DNA from: a virus
Length of the DNA stretch: 33,807 bases
IMG/VR virus record: IMGVR_UViG_3300044729_001736
Location: 1 to 33,807 of that record
Reading direction: 5' to 3' (one strand)
Position 1 is the stretch's first letter. Each line of letters begins with the position of its first letter. Of the stretch, positions 18,589-33,807 are shown one piece after another. Under the pieces are notes generated by a model. The model was not told the origin of the DNA. It searched no databases and saw only the letters and a program-made list of their open reading frames with translations. The position numbers and the translations under genes were made by a program.

Positions 18589-18611
18589 GCGGGCTGAGTT
18601 CCGCCGCCCGC
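18589..18611. other. Hairpin between the 77-aa gene and the micro-peptides
   Basis: A perfect GCGGGC/GCCCGC stem with an 11-base loop in the 55-base gap on the early strand. It has no T-run. It could separate expression of the two terminal peptide genes from the operon or protect the mRNA. Confidence 0.4.
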
Positions 18612-18628
18612 TGCGCGGTTAAATTGAG

Positions 18629-18862
18629 TTAGGCCCGCTTCTTGTGGCCAGACACCATTTCCGCCAAAAGATCGAGGCCGTCTTGAGACTGGAAACGGTC
18701 GTAAAGATTGAGTGCATCACATACTTTGCTTTCCCATTGCTCCTTAATCTCTGCCGCCCCCCGCTGGTAGCACAGTTCCGCAAACCGCTGGCGCACTCTG
18801 CCGTCATCGCTCGATGCTTTGAACGCCTCAAGCCAAAGGTCATCAATCTCGCGGTCGGTCAT
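18629..18862 (-). CDS. Hypothetical early protein, 77 aa
   Basis: A soluble helical protein beginning MTDREIDDLWLEAFKASSDD. Its start overlaps the stop of the upstream gene and a GGAAGGAA ribosome binding site lies in that gene's end. Similar small MTDREI-type proteins occur in many phage early regions; no function is known. The stop codon is inside GTTAGGC (18628-18634), but no attC site accompanies it. Confidence 0.7.
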   Translation of the reverse strand: MTDREIDDLWLEAFKASSDDGRVRQRFAELCYQRGAAEIKEQWESKVCDALNLYDRFQSQDGLDLLAEMVSGHKKRA

Positions 18863-19791: not shown

Positions 19792-20315
19792 CGCTGGCCC
19801 TCCTTGATCGCCCGCAAGAGCGCGCTGCGGTACTGACCGAGGCTCTGAAACGACGCGGCGTGACTGTCATCCGCGATCAGCGCCCGCATTTGCTCGGCCT
19901 TAAGCTCTGTGGTAGCCAGTCGTTTCGCCAGATCACGGTAGCCGTGTAGTCGCTGTGCAGCTTCCGGTGATTGCAGCCATGTCGCCGCCTTCGCTTCCCA
20001 TTCAGCAATCAGCGCCTGGAGGATCGCCTCGGCGTGCAGTTCATCCTGATCGACCTCGGCCTGCTGCGCCGACGCACAACCGGCATTGAACGCCTCGGTC
20101 AGTTCACGCCACGCATGATGACCACGCGCTGCGCCGTAGCGGTCGCGCAGGTAGGTTTCGGCGTCCGCCGCCGGCTCGGCCTGCTGCGCCAGCGTGGCGC
20201 GGAGGGCCGCAATGGCGTAATCTGCCTCTCCGATTTGCGCTTCACGTTGCGTCATAACAAGCGCCTCCAGCACTTGCTCCGCGACGGCTCGCGGCATTGT
20301 GATAAGGTCACTCAT
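19788..20315 (-). CDS. Hypothetical early protein, 175 aa
   Basis: A helical, Ala/Glu/Gln-rich protein with an ALRATLAQQAE segment near residue 40 and a C-terminal coiled-coil-like region. The last codons, K-E-G-Q-R-stop, encode the ribosome binding site of the next gene. Its own start uses the same junction, whose upstream part is now the remnant left of the inserted cassette at 20316-20362 (in-frame codons HDLPNTTKEGQR). The cassette may therefore reduce coupling of this gene to its former upstream partner. Confidence 0.7.
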   Translation of the reverse strand: MSDLITMPRAVAEQVLEALVMTQREAQIGEADYAIAALRATLAQQAEPAADAETYLRDRYGAARGHHAWRELTEAFNAGCASAQQAEVDQDELHAEAILQALIAEWEAKAATWLQSPEAAQRLHGYRDLAKRLATTELKAEQMRALIADDSHAASFQSLGQYRSALLRAIKEGQR

Positions 20316-20350
20316 CGCTGGCCCTCCTTGGTGGTGTTTGGCAGATCGTG

Positions 20351-20367
20351 GCGCATCAACACTAGTT
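20351..20367 (+). repeat. Direct repeat flanking the cassette, left copy
   Basis: GCGCATCAACACTAGTT. It matches 20675-20691 with one T/C difference and lies 324 bases away. Deleting one repeat plus the DNA between them restores the interrupted early gene in frame. Confidence 0.85.
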
Positions 20368-20605
20368 AGGCATCAACTTCGCCCAGCAGAAGCGTTCGAG
20401 CTTCGTAGTACGGCGCGTCGGGCTTGACGAATTGGTTGCCGCGCAGGTCCGTGTATGTCGTGTGCTTATCAGGCGCGAACGGCACAACCCGAGCGCTTCC
20501 GCCTTGGTCGTAGTAGCCAGTGCCGCGGCTGTGCTCTACCACTTCCACGGTGGCGTCTTGGTCTTCAAACGCGGCAAGCCACTGGATCAGTTCTCTTACT
20601 GTCAT
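20366..20605 (-). CDS. Cassette-borne early-type protein, 79 aa
   Basis: Begins MTVRELIQWLAAF and continues with D-x-x-V-E-V-V-E-H-S-R-G-T-G-Y-Y-D-Q-G-G, a pattern like small phage and plasmid proteins that start with an L-I-x-x-L helix. GGAGG is 5 bases before the ATG; a GTG 12 bases upstream overlaps that site and is less likely. The gene is wholly inside the putative integron cassette, and its TAA stop is the first trinucleotide (TTA) of the cassette. It is oriented with the phage operon and opposite to the usual cassette gene orientation. Function unknown. Confidence 0.75.
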   Translation of the reverse strand: MTVRELIQWLAAFEDQDATVEVVEHSRGTGYYDQGGSARVVPFAPDKHTTYTDLRGNQFVKPDAPYYEARTLLLGEVDA

Positions 20606-20672
20606 CTCATCCTCCACGGTTGATGCCTAACTGTCGCTCAAGCCGACCGCTTCGCGGCGGCTTAGCTTTTTG
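20366..20672 (+). mobile_element. Integron-type gene cassette (307 bp)
   Basis: It begins TTAGGC after a G at 20365 and ends with a G before TT at 20672/20673, the exact cut point of integron cassettes (G|TTRRRY). Its end carries an attC-type site. The cassette start GTTAGGC and the R'' box GCCTAAC are perfectly complementary, as required for a cassette that once circularized; the match extends to 14 bp (20364-20377 with 20619-20632). No integrase is encoded in the window. It was probably acquired from a host integron or by integrase action in the host. Confidence 0.8.
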
Positions 20673-20678
20673 TTGCGC
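20625..20678 (+). other. attC: attC recombination site
   Basis: The order of parts matches attC sites: R'' GCCTAAC (20625-20631), then TCAAGCCGAC, a short GC-rich tip with CTTCG, then CGGCTTAGC, then G|TTGCGC as the R' position (20672-20678). The AAGCCG/CGGCTT arms pair, with one unpaired A before a CCG/CGG tip, like the extrahelical base that sets strand choice in attC. After circularization R' would read GTTAGGC and pair fully with R''. The core is like those of antibiotic-resistance cassettes. Confidence 0.82.
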
Positions 20679-20875
20679 ATCAACACCAGTTCGTCGGCAG
20701 ACTCTGCGGGCGTCTTTCCGTGGTGCCACTTCGCCGTCAGTGCGTCCCACTCGCGGCCAGTCGGCGGGGCGATCATCTTCCACTGGCACACGGTCTGCAC
20801 CCAATCCGCCCACAGCGAGCACTCCAGCGAGGGGTGCTGCCGCAAGTGCTCGCGGTTGCTGTCGTTGTCACTCAT
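20627..20875 (-). CDS. Early protein with its 3' end replaced by attC, 82 aa
   Basis: Residues 1-67 (MSDNDSNREHLRQHPSLECS... to VLMR) look like the original protein. The last 15 residues (NKKLSRREAVGLSDS) are read from the attC site. Skipping the inserted 324 bases gives a 79-residue chain ending HDLPNTTKEGQR, whose TGA overlaps the next ATG exactly as other genes of this operon do. The junction AAGGAGGGCCAGCGATGA serves as its ribosome binding site. It is probably still translated with an altered tail. The original function is unknown. Confidence 0.75.
   Translation of the reverse strand: MSDNDSNREHLRQHPSLECSLWADWVQTVCQWKMIAPPTGREWDALTAKWHHGKTPAESADELVLMRNKKLSRREAVGLSDS
20675..20691 (+). 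repeat. Direct repeat flanking the cassette, right copy
   Basis: GCGCATCAACACCAGTT, matching 20351-20367 with one difference. On the minus strand it encodes the LVLMR end of the uninterrupted part of the early gene. Confidence 0.85.
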
Positions 20876-21733: not shown

Positions 21734-22351
21734 CTACGCTCCTTCGGTTACTTGCTGGAAAATGGCCTCGACTTCGGCCAAGAATTGCACTGCTGCTTGC
21801 TCCACCGCTGCAATCTGCTCTGCGGTCGGCTCAAAGCGGCGGATAAAAATACGCTGCTCGCGCACCTTGACGCGCGGGTCAAACGCGACGAAATCAACGA
21901 ACCGCCGCCGCGTGCAGGCAATCTGCGCCAGCATTTGCGGCTTGTGTTCCTCCGGCACCACGCCAGCGGCCCGCCAGTTGACATATGTAGTCGTGGTCGG
22001 GCACTTGATCTCGACCAGCCCATCCGCCCCGAGTAGCCGGTCAGGCGTTGCGCCAAAAAACTCGATTGACGGATGCGGGAAGAAGCCGCAGTTCTCCAAC
22101 AAGTTGCCGGTTGTTTCCTCATACGCCGCCGCCGCTTCCGGCTCGCAGTCGATGCCGTGCTGCATTGCAGGGCTGACGAAATGATCTAAAGCCCCGTCAA
22201 TCATGCGCTCGGCTACAAGCTCCGTCGCGTATTTCCGCCGTGCCTCGGCAGGCTGGCCGTTTTTTAGCGTGGCGAGAACGTCTTTCATTCGACTAGCAGT
22301 AAGCCAGCCGATGCGCTGCCGTACCCATGCCGAGGATTGCTGCGGGATCAT
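21734..22351 (-). CDS. YqaJ/lambda-type exonuclease (recombinase)
   Basis: A 205-aa PD-(D/E)XK nuclease. Motifs are H-G-I-D-C-E-P-E-A (Glu70), S-I-E-F-F-G-A-T-P-D-R (Asp104) and L-V-E-I-K-C-P (Glu114, Lys116), matching the metal-binding and catalytic residues of lambda exonuclease. It would resect 5' strands of duplex DNA and hand the 3' strand to the ERF annealing protein encoded upstream in the same operon. The start overlaps the preceding stop in an AAAGCGGAGGGCAAATGA junction. Confidence 0.9.
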   Translation of the reverse strand: MIPQQSSAWVRQRIGWLTASRMKDVLATLKNGQPAEARRKYATELVAERMIDGALDHFVSPAMQHGIDCEPEAAAAYEETTGNLLENCGFFPHPSIEFFGATPDRLLGADGLVEIKCPTTTTYVNWRAAGVVPEEHKPQMLAQIACTRRRFVDFVAFDPRVKVREQRIFIRRFEPTAEQIAAVEQAAVQFLAEVEAIFQQVTEGA

Positions 22352-22584: not shown

Positions 22585-22940
22585 TTGCACTCCGCTTTAG
22601 CGATGGCGGCGCGGGCTTTTTGGTGTGCTTCTTCACCTTGTGCGTTAATTGGTGGGCATACGTTGAGCATGTACGTCAACGCCCCCAGCAACTCAGGGAA
22701 CAGCGCGGCCCGCCGCTTCATCTCTGCACGTTTTGCCTCAGCCTTGTCGCGGAGCGAATTTTCGTAACGCCACTTGCGGTCACGTTCCTCTTGCCTCGCA
22801 TTCGCTTTGGCGGCAATAGTTGGCGGGTGATGCGTCTTGCAGTACCACTGCCCTTCATGTTCGTACTTCGCTGTCTTGCTGCATTGGTGGCTGCGAAATG
22901 CGACAGGAGACCATGCGCGGCCAACGCAAATGTGCTTCAT
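22581..22940 (-). CDS. Cys/His-rich early protein, 119 aa
   Basis: The N-terminal 40 residues contain C5, a R-S-H-Q-C-S motif and W-Y-C-K-T-H-H, likely a zinc site. A strongly charged helix follows (QEERDRKWRYENSLRDKAEA), and the C-terminus is A-A-I-A-K-A-E-C-K, a variant of the repeated junction. Similar Cys/His proteins with a coiled-coil tail occur in many phage early regions. DNA binding is possible but not shown. Confidence 0.65.
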   Translation of the reverse strand: MKHICVGRAWSPVAFRSHQCSKTAKYEHEGQWYCKTHHPPTIAAKANARQEERDRKWRYENSLRDKAEAKRAEMKRRAALFPELLGALTYMLNVCPPINAQGEEAHQKARAAIAKAECK

Positions 22941-23488
22941 GCCGCCTCCAATTCTTTCTTGCGCCCATCCTTAACCGCCGAATACCGCGCCCGCAGGTTT
23001 GACGGAATAGCTGCCCATGCGTCAGCCAGTTCGCCCATATTCTTAGCCGACTTCAACCGGCCAACAGTGGCGGGGTCATGCGTAAACGGGTCGGGCTGTT
23101 CGTCTTTCCCATCTTTCTTGGTTGCGCCGTTGCCATCATCATCATCAGACGGCACGCCCCAGGCGGTTTGCAGGCTGTACCTACGGGCATAGGTGATAGC
23201 GCTTCCGTAGGCTTGCGCATCGTTCTTGATTGCAGGCACAAACAACGGGCCGCATAAAAACTGTTCGCCGGACTCGTGCAAGATGATCGTTTCGACGGTC
23301 ACGCCGCCCGAGGACTCGCGGAACACTTGCACAAACCCCAAACCATGTGCAGCGGCAGCGGGCTTGATTGCCGAGACAACCGAAGCCAAGTCGGCGTACT
23401 TGGATTTGAAATGCGGGTTCGTGCTGTCTTTGACCGCCGCCGAAATTTCAGATTGCGCCTTGACCAGCGCAGCAAACAAGTTTTTCAT
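22937..23488 (-). CDS. erf: ERF-family single-strand annealing protein
   Basis: A 183-aa recombinase with the family start K-A-Q-S-E-I and N-P-H-F-K-S-K-Y-A-D-L-A-S-V (residues 24-37), then H-E-S-G-E-x-F and Y-G-S-A-I-T-Y-A-R-R-Y-S-L, all typical of P22 Erf. An acidic linker (DDDDGNG) precedes a small C-terminal part. It anneals complementary single strands, and in phages like this can circularize the terminally redundant genome after entry. It acts with the YqaJ exonuclease downstream. Confidence 0.92.
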   Translation of the reverse strand: MKNLFAALVKAQSEISAAVKDSTNPHFKSKYADLASVVSAIKPAAAAHGLGFVQVFRESSGGVTVETIILHESGEQFLCGPLFVPAIKNDAQAYGSAITYARRYSLQTAWGVPSDDDDGNGATKKDGKDEQPDPFTHDPATVGRLKSAKNMGELADAWAAIPSNLRARYSAVKDGRKKELEAA

Positions 23489-30983: not shown

Positions 30984-33296
30984 ATGATTGAATACACCGG
31001 TCGCCCGCAAGGCGTCAAAGACGCCGACATCGTTGCCGAGGCGCGAAAGCGCTATCGCGTGGCGTCTGACGCCGCCTCCCGAAACCGCGAGAGCTTCCGC
31101 GAGGCGATGCGGTTTGCCGCTGGCAATCAATGGGATGACCGGCTAAAGCAAGCCCGCGAGTCGCAAAACCGGCCTTGTCTGACGATGGACAGGCTTGGCA
31201 CGCACATCAACCAGATTGTTAACGATCAGCGGCAGAGTAAGCCCGCGATCAAATGCAACCCCGTAGACGATAAGGCCGACGTTAAGACCGCCGAGATTCT
31301 GAATGGGGTCATTCGGAACATCGAGCATTTGAGCAATGCGCCGATGGTCTACGAAACGGCCAGCTTCACTCAGGTTGCCGCAGGCATGGGCGTTTGGCGG
31401 GTGCTGACAGAGTACGCCGACGAAAACGCATTCGAGCAGGACATCCGGCTAAAGCGCATCCTCGACCCGATCTCCGTCACGTTTGACCCGAACGCCCGCG
31501 AGATGGACGCCAGCGACGCCATGTACGCTTTCGTTGAAGACTCCGTAGACCGCGAGACGTTCAAGGAGCTGTACCCGGACATTAATCCGGACGATTGGGC
31601 GGGCCAGTCTGATGACTTGGGCTGGTGGAATCCTGACAGTGTTCGTTGCGCCGAGTATTACCGCGTAATCATGCGCAAGACGCGCCTGTTCCTACTGTCC
31701 GATGGGTCGGTGATGGATGAGCAGGAATTCGCCAAGTCTGAGCGCAACCCGGCCGAAGTGATTGACCAGCGACCCAGCAAGCGGCGCGAAGTGCAATGGT
31801 TCAAGATTGCCGGGGCTTCCGTTGCCGATTCCAGAGTCTGGCCGGGGCGGTGGATTCCGCTGGTGCGGATTGTCGGAAATGAGACCGTTGTCGATGGGAA
31901 GATTCTTTACACCGGCCTGACGCAACGTGCATACGATGCGCAGCGCATGTATAACTATCAGGTCTCGACAATGGTCGAGATGCTGAGCCTGCAAAAGACG
32001 GCCCCTTACATCGGCGCGAAGGGTCAATTCAAGGGTGTTGAGGCCCGTTGGGCGCGTGCCAATGCCACAAACCCAGCTTATCTGGAATATGAGCCCGTTG
32101 AGCTAAACGGCCAATTCCTGCCAGCCCCGCAGCGCCAACCCGCGCCCCAAGTGCCGACCGGCAATGTTCAGGCCATGCAAGCGGCCGCGCAAGATTTGCA
32201 GTGGATCACTGGCCAACATGCTGCCAACTTCGGTGCCGCATCGAACGAGACCAGCGGCCGCGCCATTATGGCCCGCCAGCGCGAAGGCGACACGGCGACG
32301 TATCACTATCTGGACAACCTGAGTCGCGGCATTTTGCACACCGGCAGAATCCTGGTTGACCTGATTCCGCGCATCTACGACACCAAGCGCATTTTGCGGG
32401 TCTTGGGCGATGATGAATCTCCGTCCGTGGTCATGCACGACCCAGAGCAGCCCGAAGCCGTGCGCAAGGTGCAGGACGAAACCGGCGCAATCAAGCGCGT
32501 CTATAACCTGAACGTGGGACGCTATGACGTTGCGGTTGCCGTTGGCCCGTCCTTCGGTACGCTTCGCGCCGAGTCTACGGAGGCCATGACGCAGCTTCTG
32601 CAGGGCAATCCGAACCTGTGGACGGTTATCGGTGACTTGTACGTGCGTGGCCAGAATTGGCCGAACGCGCAAGCTATTGCGGATCGACTGGCCAAGACCG
32701 TGCCGCCTGAGATCAAGGGCGCGGAAGGCGAGGAAAACGACCCCGAAGCGATGATGGGTCAAATGCAAGCGGCGATGCAGCAACTGGAAGCCGCGTTGCA
32801 GGAACGCGAGCAGGCATTGCAGCAAGCGGCGCAGATCGTCCAGCAGCTTGAGGGCCAACTGCAAGAGGCTCAAGTCAAGCAACAGACCGAGCAAGCGCAG
32901 ACGATGGACAAGACGAACGCCGAGATCATCAAGGCCGAAACCGAGCGCTACAAGGCGGACGCCTCGATTGAAGTGGCCCGTATCGAGGCCGAAGTGGCGA
33001 AGGCTCAGGCATTGCGCGAGCAGACCGGCGCGGATATCGAGACGGTCAAGAAGCTGATGGCGACGCTTGCCGACCGGATGAATGTCGAGATGCCCGAGCT
33101 TGGAAGCGAAGACAAAGGCCCGGAACCCGAGGAAATCATGCTGGCGCAGCTTTTGGAGCAACAGCAAGGAATGCAAGACGCGATTGCACAACTTGCGACT
33201 GCCGTGCAAAGCAAACCGCCGATTGCGGTCGAGATCATGCGCGGCCCGGATGGACGCGCACAACAATTCGTAATGAGGCCGACAAATGGCGGTTAA
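30984..33296 (+). CDS. Portal protein, P22 gp1-like
   Basis: 770 aa, near P22 portal length (725). The N-terminus R-F-A-A-G-N-Q-W-D and N-x-I-V-N-D-Q-R-Q-S-K-P-A-I-K are typical of the P22 portal family. A Gln/Glu-rich coiled coil (about 590-690) resembles the long helical barrel of P22 portal. It forms the 12-fold DNA channel at one vertex and receives terminase and gp4. The start ATG at 30984 has a modest site (GTCGGG). Its 3' end is repeated, diverged, at the start of the window. Confidence 0.93.
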   Translation: MIEYTGRPQGVKDADIVAEARKRYRVASDAASRNRESFREAMRFAAGNQWDDRLKQARESQNRPCLTMDRLGTHINQIVNDQRQSKPAIKCNPVDDKADVKTAEILNGVIRNIEHLSNAPMVYETASFTQVAAGMGVWRVLTEYADENAFEQDIRLKRILDPISVTFDPNAREMDASDAMYAFVEDSVDRETFKELYPDINPDDWAGQSDDLGWWNPDSVRCAEYYRVIMRKTRLFLLSDGSVMDEQEFAKSERNPAEVIDQRPSKRREVQWFKIAGASVADSRVWPGRWIPLVRIVGNETVVDGKILYTGLTQRAYDAQRMYNYQVSTMVEMLSLQKTAPYIGAKGQFKGVEARWARANATNPAYLEYEPVELNGQFLPAPQRQPAPQVPTGNVQAMQAAAQDLQWITGQHAANFGAASNETSGRAIMARQREGDTATYHYLDNLSRGILHTGRILVDLIPRIYDTKRILRVLGDDESPSVVMHDPEQPEAVRKVQDETGAIKRVYNLNVGRYDVAVAVGPSFGTLRAESTEAMTQLLQGNPNLWTVIGDLYVRGQNWPNAQAIADRLAKTVPPEIKGAEGEENDPEAMMGQMQAAMQQLEAALQEREQALQQAAQIVQQLEGQLQEAQVKQQTEQAQTMDKTNAEIIKAETERYKADASIEVARIEAEVAKAQALREQTGADIETVKKLMATLADRMNVEMPELGSEDKGPEPEEIMLAQLLEQQQGMQDAIAQLATAVQSKPPIAVEIMRGPDGRAQQFVMRPTNGG

Positions 33297-33666
33297 CTAT
33301 CGAGCCTCTCTCAAGACCACGCGCATGACGGCGGTGCGCGATGACATTGACAGCGGAACCGGCGCGGGCACGTTGGAAATCTGTACTGCGGCTTACGCCT
33401 CAGTGCTAGTTACTTTCACCTGTAACGATCCGTGCGGCACGGTAAGCGGCGATGTTTTGTCGTTTTCCGGCTTGACCAAGACTGCGACCGCTGGCAACAC
33501 AGGCACTGCCGCCATTGCGCGGTTCAAGAATTCATCGGGCACGGACATTGTGACCGGCTTGACGGTCGGCACCTCTGGTACAGACATCATCATCAGCCCG
33601 TCAACGACGATCACCTCGGGTCAGTCGGTTGACTGGACTGCTGGCACCATCACGCACAGCGCATAA
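33286..33666 (+). CDS. Small putative virion protein (126 aa), allele B
   Basis: Same protein as 313-693, with Ala for Thr near residue 7 and Gly for Ser near residue 55; many codons differ silently. It overlaps the portal 3' end by 11 bases. It is the allele matched to the complete portal gene. Structural role inferred from position. Confidence 0.75.
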   Translation: MAVNYRASLKTTRMTAVRDDIDSGTGAGTLEICTAAYASVLVTFTCNDPCGTVSGDVLSFSGLTKTATAGNTGTAAIARFKNSSGTDIVTGLTVGTSGTDIIISPSTTITSGQSVDWTAGTITHSA

Positions 33667-33676
33667 AAGGCACGGC

Positions 33677-33807
33677 ATGTCTGATAACGTCGTTCTCCCT
33701 GGCACTGGCGAATCGGTCGCCACTGACGACATTAGTGGCATCCAGTATCAGCGCATCAAGGTTTCCGATGGGCTGGCCGAATCGACCACGCACATGCGCG
33801 TTCGCGC
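33677..33807 (+). CDS. Start of the 505-aa structural protein, allele B (3' cut by window edge)
   Basis: The first 43 codons of the gene seen complete at 702-2219, starting MSDNVV instead of MADNVV. The intergenic spacer has two extra A residues compared with the other copy. The rest is identical up to the window end. Confidence 0.9.
   Translation, partial: MSDNVVLPGTGESVATDDISGIQYQRIKVSDGLAESTTHMRVR

Follow-up and report, generated by a model that had tools for sequence, protein, structure and literature searches.

A phage genome carries in its early operon a genuine integron gene cassette of 307 bp, which is predicted to have been recombined by an integron integrase (IntI). It lies in the window, by which we mean the whole 33,807-base stretch of DNA analysed here, an IMG/VR record classed as viral. 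We consider it likely that this is a true cassette that IntI inserted at a lone G|TT, and that it comes from a phage-adapted pool of cassettes with reversed genes transcribed from the early operon. A first-pass annotation had already read the segment as an integron cassette with its attC inside a phage early operon, and this is borne out by a covariance model search, by the way the site folds, by its junctions and by an independent copy that lies in an array. The attC with its junctions, the reversed genes, the arrays in which other phages keep such cassettes and the presence or absence of whole cassettes can be read directly from the DNA, while the manner of joining and of expression set out below is predicted from them.

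The cassette and its attC site

Profile searches identified a P22-type portal and a large terminase in the window, the two ends of which (positions 1-832 and 32974-33807) form an 832-bp repeat with 92.8% identity. This terminal repeat makes it probable that the genome is circularly permuted and close to complete, or else it marks a join of two strain variants. The early operon runs on the minus strand and includes the genes for ERF and YqaJ. The features that bear on the cassette are the following:

20366..20672, no strand assigned: 307-bp integron gene cassette, bounded by a G|TT junction on each side (sequence; 97% identical block in contig L003 with the same boundary)
20366..20617, minus strand: cassette gene, 83 amino acids, ATG at 20605 (open reading frame; phrog_14647, E = 4.5e-14; homologues in isolate phages)
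20625..20678, plus strand (canonical top strand; the recombinogenic bottom strand is the minus strand): attC site, the only one in the window (covariance model R1; fold)
20625..20631, plus strand: R'' box GCCTAAC (sequence; complementary to GTTAGGC at 20365-20371)
20638..20645, plus strand: L'' box TCAAGCCG (sequence, covariance model alignment)
20658..20665, plus strand: L' box CGGCTTAG (sequence, covariance model alignment)
20672..20678, plus strand: hybrid R' box G|TTGCGC at the right junction (sequence; R stem of the integrated form stays open)
20351..20367, plus strand: left 17-bp flank GCGCATCAACACTAGTT (sequence; same left flank without cassette in L021)
20675..20691, plus strand: right 17-bp flank GCGCATCAACACCAGTT (sequence)
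20627..20875, minus strand: upstream phage gene, MSDNDSN...ELVLMRN, ending inside attC at KKLSRREAVGLSDS (open reading frame translation, junction sequence)
21734..22351, minus strand: YqaJ-type recombination exonuclease (PF09588, E = 5e-21), sharing operon and direction with the cassette gene
22937..23488, minus strand: ERF single-strand annealing protein (PF04404, E = 2e-27)

The boxes and boundaries given in the first-pass annotation for the 307-bp segment are all present where it had placed them. The left junction reads CACTAG|TTAGGC with the cut at 20365|20366, the right junction is a G|TT cut at 20672|20673, and the tip of the attC is CGCTTCGCG. The complementarity of R'' and R' that had been claimed for the circular form holds over seven pairs (GCCTAAC/GTTAGGC). 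An attC covariance model, set beforehand as a test of the annotation, finds the window site: our model R1, made from 12 bacterial attCs (five class 1 plasmid and seven chromosomal), returned 20625-20678 on the plus strand as its sole significant match on both strands of the 33.8 kb (25.3 bits, E = 1.3e-4). When attC is reconstituted with its own R', the minus strand folds into seven R pairs and a 13-pair L/upper stem (z = -4.9), with the same stems as attC_aadA2 folded alongside and with two extrahelical bases at identical positions. In the integrated form R' is a hybrid that includes phage sequence and the R stem therefore stays unclosed, which suggests that the cassette would be hard to excise from its present site. 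With no match to TIGR02249 (intI), the window holds a lone cassette, not a complete integron. A CALIN has no intI and at least two attCs, the number also required in Qi 2023 (PMC9892861); the single attC of the window falls short of this, whereas L003 and many other contigs are CALINs.

The two 17-bp flanks, GCGCATCAACACYAGTT (20351-20367 and 20675-20691), lie within the range 20351-20691 delimited by the annotation, are near-identical and would stand in tandem at an empty site. Through the insertion the upstream gene lost its TAG stop, and its end is now within attC. The TAA stop of the 83-aa gene (20366-20368) falls inside the R box. This gene is on the minus strand and attC on the plus strand, an antisense arrangement unlike the sense arrangement of a typical bacterial cassette, and one that the first-pass annotation had not remarked on. 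The protein family, phrog_14647, is of unknown function, and the structure prediction for the 83-aa protein was weak (pLDDT 71, pTM 0.48). The gene-start sequence GGAGGGCCAGCGATGAGTGAC is present in three exact copies (window 19783, 20307 and 20867) and is found in L021 too; such copies are possible homology points for early-gene shuffling.

Copies, relatives and whole-cassette differences

Comparison with related phages, which the annotation had put forward as a check, agrees with an insertion: among the relatives found, only the near-identical L002 (99.9% identity over 4.7 kb) shares the cassette at the same place, and the 307 bp is missing from the others, in which YqaJ is 65-94% identical. 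L021 is identical to the window from 20306 to 20367, where the G|TT is reached, and diverges beyond it; it shows the left flank without the cassette but is not a full empty site. In L021 GACGAACTAGTG is joined directly, yet we rejected it as a true empty site: the gene upstream is a different one, and flank repeats of 15-17 bp leave room for an origin by recombination, so that L021 counts as a cassette-free left flank. The empty-site sequence expected for the window locus is GCGCATCAACACTAGTTGCGCATCAACACCAGTT; a search with the flanking genes returned L002 alone and no true empty site. In the same phage family there is a second cassette hot spot (window 18600-18660, L017 11858-12217, L019 8040-8680, L021 5722-6050), at which the window has no cassette but a GCCTAACTCAATTTAACC box, L021 has one cassette, L019 has two and L017 has two attC hits.

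The block at window 20365-20645 recurs at 97% identity in L003, with its start exactly at the G|TT boundary. L003 is an early-operon piece of another, unrelated phage, with YqaJ, HNH and RecT-like genes, and the copy sits there within an array of seven attC sites. The gene is common to the window and L003 and the outer half of attC is not; therefore gene and attC have been reassorted. L004 and L005 carry a copy of the window cassette at 77%. Between early genes of L004 (825-1700) there are also degenerate R-box pairs such as GCCTAACTAGAGTTAGGC, perhaps decayed attC sites.

Close phages differ by the clean presence or absence of whole cassettes in six cases. Five of these join at the canonical R' cut by G|TT (L081/L121, L139/L185, L128/L090 and two in L169/L145), while the sixth, a 373-bp difference of L197 or L110 against L173 with flanks 99.6-99.9% identical, joins at the R'' box, a junction that homologous recombination or use of the top strand would also give. 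The sixth case prompted us to consider a gene plus its downstream attC, mobilised through the top strand, as the mobile unit; the other five junctions contradict this as a general rule.

Some of these phages encode the enzyme. Proteins above the TIGR02249 cut-off are present in two of the 35 attC-bearing phage records, with L137/L104 and a fragment in L111 in addition. The four distinct phage IntIs form one clade (96/94) against 14 bacterial IntIs, a small sample. In L124, L141/L335, L137/L104 and L111, the integron integrase stands alongside a phage-type integrase and reverse-gene attC arrays. In all four IntI-bearing phages the relation of intI to attC is canonical and the cassette genes are flipped, running with intI.

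Gene direction and translation starts in the phage attC pool

We searched with an 18-base pattern from the outer attC end, GYCTAACGTTYGAGYTAA, which occurs in at least 120 stretches on at least about 114 contigs of IMG/VR and in 119 bacterial genome stretches, for which Rubrivivax and other Burkholderiales account in many cases. When whole phage records were searched with R1, 33 of 35 had attC sites, with a maximum of 17 per record. Terminase (phrog_2) was present in 12 of 26 attC phage records and YqaJ in eight of 26. In six of the six YqaJ records with listed sites, the window included, attC lies downstream of YqaJ and on the opposite strand, and the genes are co-directed with YqaJ.

Antisense polarity is the rule in phage contigs and no accident. 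Among the matches listed, 237 phage gene sides next to the pattern are antisense and 23 sense to attC, and per locus the antisense:sense ratio is 101:1; in bacteria the corresponding counts are 100 antisense to 360 sense gene sides and 12:81 loci, the remaining loci being mixed, and none of these are counts of independent events because some contigs are near-duplicates. The best open reading frame between neighbouring covariance model hits is antisense in 52 of 63 phage cassettes compared with 20 of 93 bacterial ones (p = 2e-14). Genes were called by one simple rule based on G+C by codon position, applied alike to phage and bacteria; the phage set was collected with a single attC pattern and consists of metagenomic contigs throughout. 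For several phage cassette genes (C5 methylases, DUF6378, YfbR-like and HTH proteins) homology fixes the strand. The call of attC polarity itself is firm, since phage attCs score about 70 bits with R1, and up to 74, on one strand as against ~19 on the other, and intI is placed canonically in four of four phages. A bacterial bin, L291 (an Aquincola sp. MAG), also has reverse-gene cassettes, adjoining a phage-type integrase; this stretch is probably a prophage and gives a hint of Burkholderiales hosts.

Many phage attCs also carry a start for translation. Among those of 70-140 nt, 57 of 92 have a ribosome-binding motif and an ATG on the gene-matching strand with the frame open into the gene, compared to 12 of 231 in bacteria; in the other direction such an in-attC start was seen at one of 93 phage and none of 230 bacterial sites. 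The inner boxes TTGAGCGAGGGGTTAGGC translate as LSEGLG or LERGVR, and the leader MTTESTPAVLGLSEGLG stands ahead of at least three different gene bodies. Leaders ending ...LSEGLG and ...LERGVR are common to otherwise unrelated cassette proteins (L003, L093, L110, L139, L144, L150 and others). The short attC of the window is without a leader, and the ribosome-binding site of the 83-aa gene comes after the R box. At the level of sequence we regard the phage cassette pool, its polarity and its leader starts as established.

Origin of the cassette and comparison with known systems

In the mechanism that we propose, an integron integrase would have inserted a circular cassette through the folded bottom strand of its attC into a lone G|TT within the final codons of an early phage gene. 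The cassette would have been drawn from a phage-adapted pool in which the genes have the reverse of the customary orientation with respect to attC and intI and, because of this, would owe their transcription to the early operon of the phage, where they follow YqaJ/RecT/ERF, and not to Pc. In many members of the pool attC would provide the ribosome-binding site and start codon as well. Joining would be carried out by a host IntI for the window phage and by a phage IntI for some of its relatives, and expression of the 83-aa gene would come from the early operon. A broader proposal, towards which we lean with less assurance, is that a lineage of phages of Burkholderiales-like hosts runs an integron system of its own, with a phage IntI clade, early-operon reverse-gene cassettes and an attC serving as a portable translation start by which any inserted gene receives a common leader peptide, and that phages lacking intI, the window phage among them, depend on IntI supplied by their host or by another phage infecting the same cell.

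The cassette might instead be an ordinary bacterial one that a host integron integrase inserted off-target into a phage, comparable to attG, with an antisense gene by accident. Insertion of the attG type has been published (Loot 2024, as cited in PMC12901181), a full IntI is present in genomes of Rubrivivax, Roseateles and Ideonella that carry this type of attC, and the window encodes none. This origin is nevertheless unlikely in view of the gene and its direction. The 83-aa gene belongs to a phage family with members in phages without attC: isolate phages of Stenotrophomonas and Pseudomonas have homologues, Stenotrophomonas phage S72 has no attC beside its own, and blastn/tblastn of isolate phages with the L003-type attC and gene yielded homologues of the gene without attC and zero attC matches, the L003-type attC having no match among 50,697 phage records. 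The gene was absent from the bacterial arrays examined and had no match in 399 host genomes of the order, a search that had no positive control. The reverse polarity, finally, is too general in phage contigs to be accidental. The first-pass annotation had inferred that a host integrase placed a circular cassette into the phage, which is partly supported: the cassette stands, while the evidence does not establish that it was a bacterial one placed by a host integrase. The gene family is a phage one, the polarity is of the phage type, and some phages encode IntI.

We consider it improbable that the attC-like palindromes are phage intergenic repeats spread through homologous recombination by ERF/YqaJ without an integron integrase. 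Such phages do encode ERF/RecT and YqaJ, the gene-start repeat is present three times, a crossover within about 20 bp of common R''/L'' would account for one of the six polymorphisms, and 17-bp repeats flank the window cassette. Against this, the covariance model sees a marked strand asymmetry (74 bits versus about 19), five of the six cases have their boundaries at the R' G|TT, the extrahelical bases are conserved, and real IntI genes adjoin such arrays in four phages. That the hairpin is nothing more than a terminator of transcription, or a structure in the mRNA, separating two phage genes can practically be dismissed: a G+C hairpin is followed by a T-run (GCTTTTTG), but on the plus strand whereas the genes are on the minus strand, and this leaves unexplained why R boxes stand 260 bp from each other, why the cassette has a copy in another phage and why the covariance model finds the site, and is disfavoured by the independent L003 copy bounded by attC sites.

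If insertion by IntI from a phage-adapted pool is correct, phages would shuffle genes by integron recombination as a matter of course, not by an occasional mishap, and a large cassette pool, methyltransferases included, would be under phage control. The strict gene direction would have a testable cause in that the phage operon, and not Pc, drives expression, phage genes landing in a host integron would be kept silent, and attC would have a second job as a translation-start module. Searches that expect genes along the attC direction could miss the reverse-gene set.

The attC of the window resembles the aadA attC of class 1 integrons in its R and L boxes and its fold, in the extrahelical bases and in the place of the G|TT cut, and a plasmid blastn with the window cassette returned similarity to the aadA attC and nothing else. 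It differs in the antisense direction of the window gene and in its R', a hybrid that includes phage sequence. With the sedentary chromosomal integrons of Rubrivivax and other Burkholderiales it shares the attC end sequence TTAGCTCGAACG|TTAGGC, whereas their genes are sense to attC and most of their attCs have no leader ORF. Like the cassettes inserted at lone sites in bacterial genomes that are described as attG (Loot 2024, via PMC12901181), the cassette would have been placed at a single G|TT outside an integron; the difference is that here the genome is that of a phage and the insertion is read from its sequence. Cassettes with attC in phage genomes were described by Qi 2023 (PMC9892861), who found integrons/CALINs in phages TJE1, P12002L and PH101, some of the cassettes adjoining methyltransferase genes, and observed recombination with attI1 for five of six tested phage attCs (IntI1 activity). 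In the isolate phage TJE1 the attCs are sense with the annotated genes, as we checked here, unlike those of the reverse-gene phage cassettes. Neither the reverse-gene rule nor attC-encoded leaders are reported in Qi 2023, and we found no report of either in the open-licence literature. Thus, while phage integrons as such are already known, the reverse-gene, leader-bearing form of the phage cassette appears to be new.
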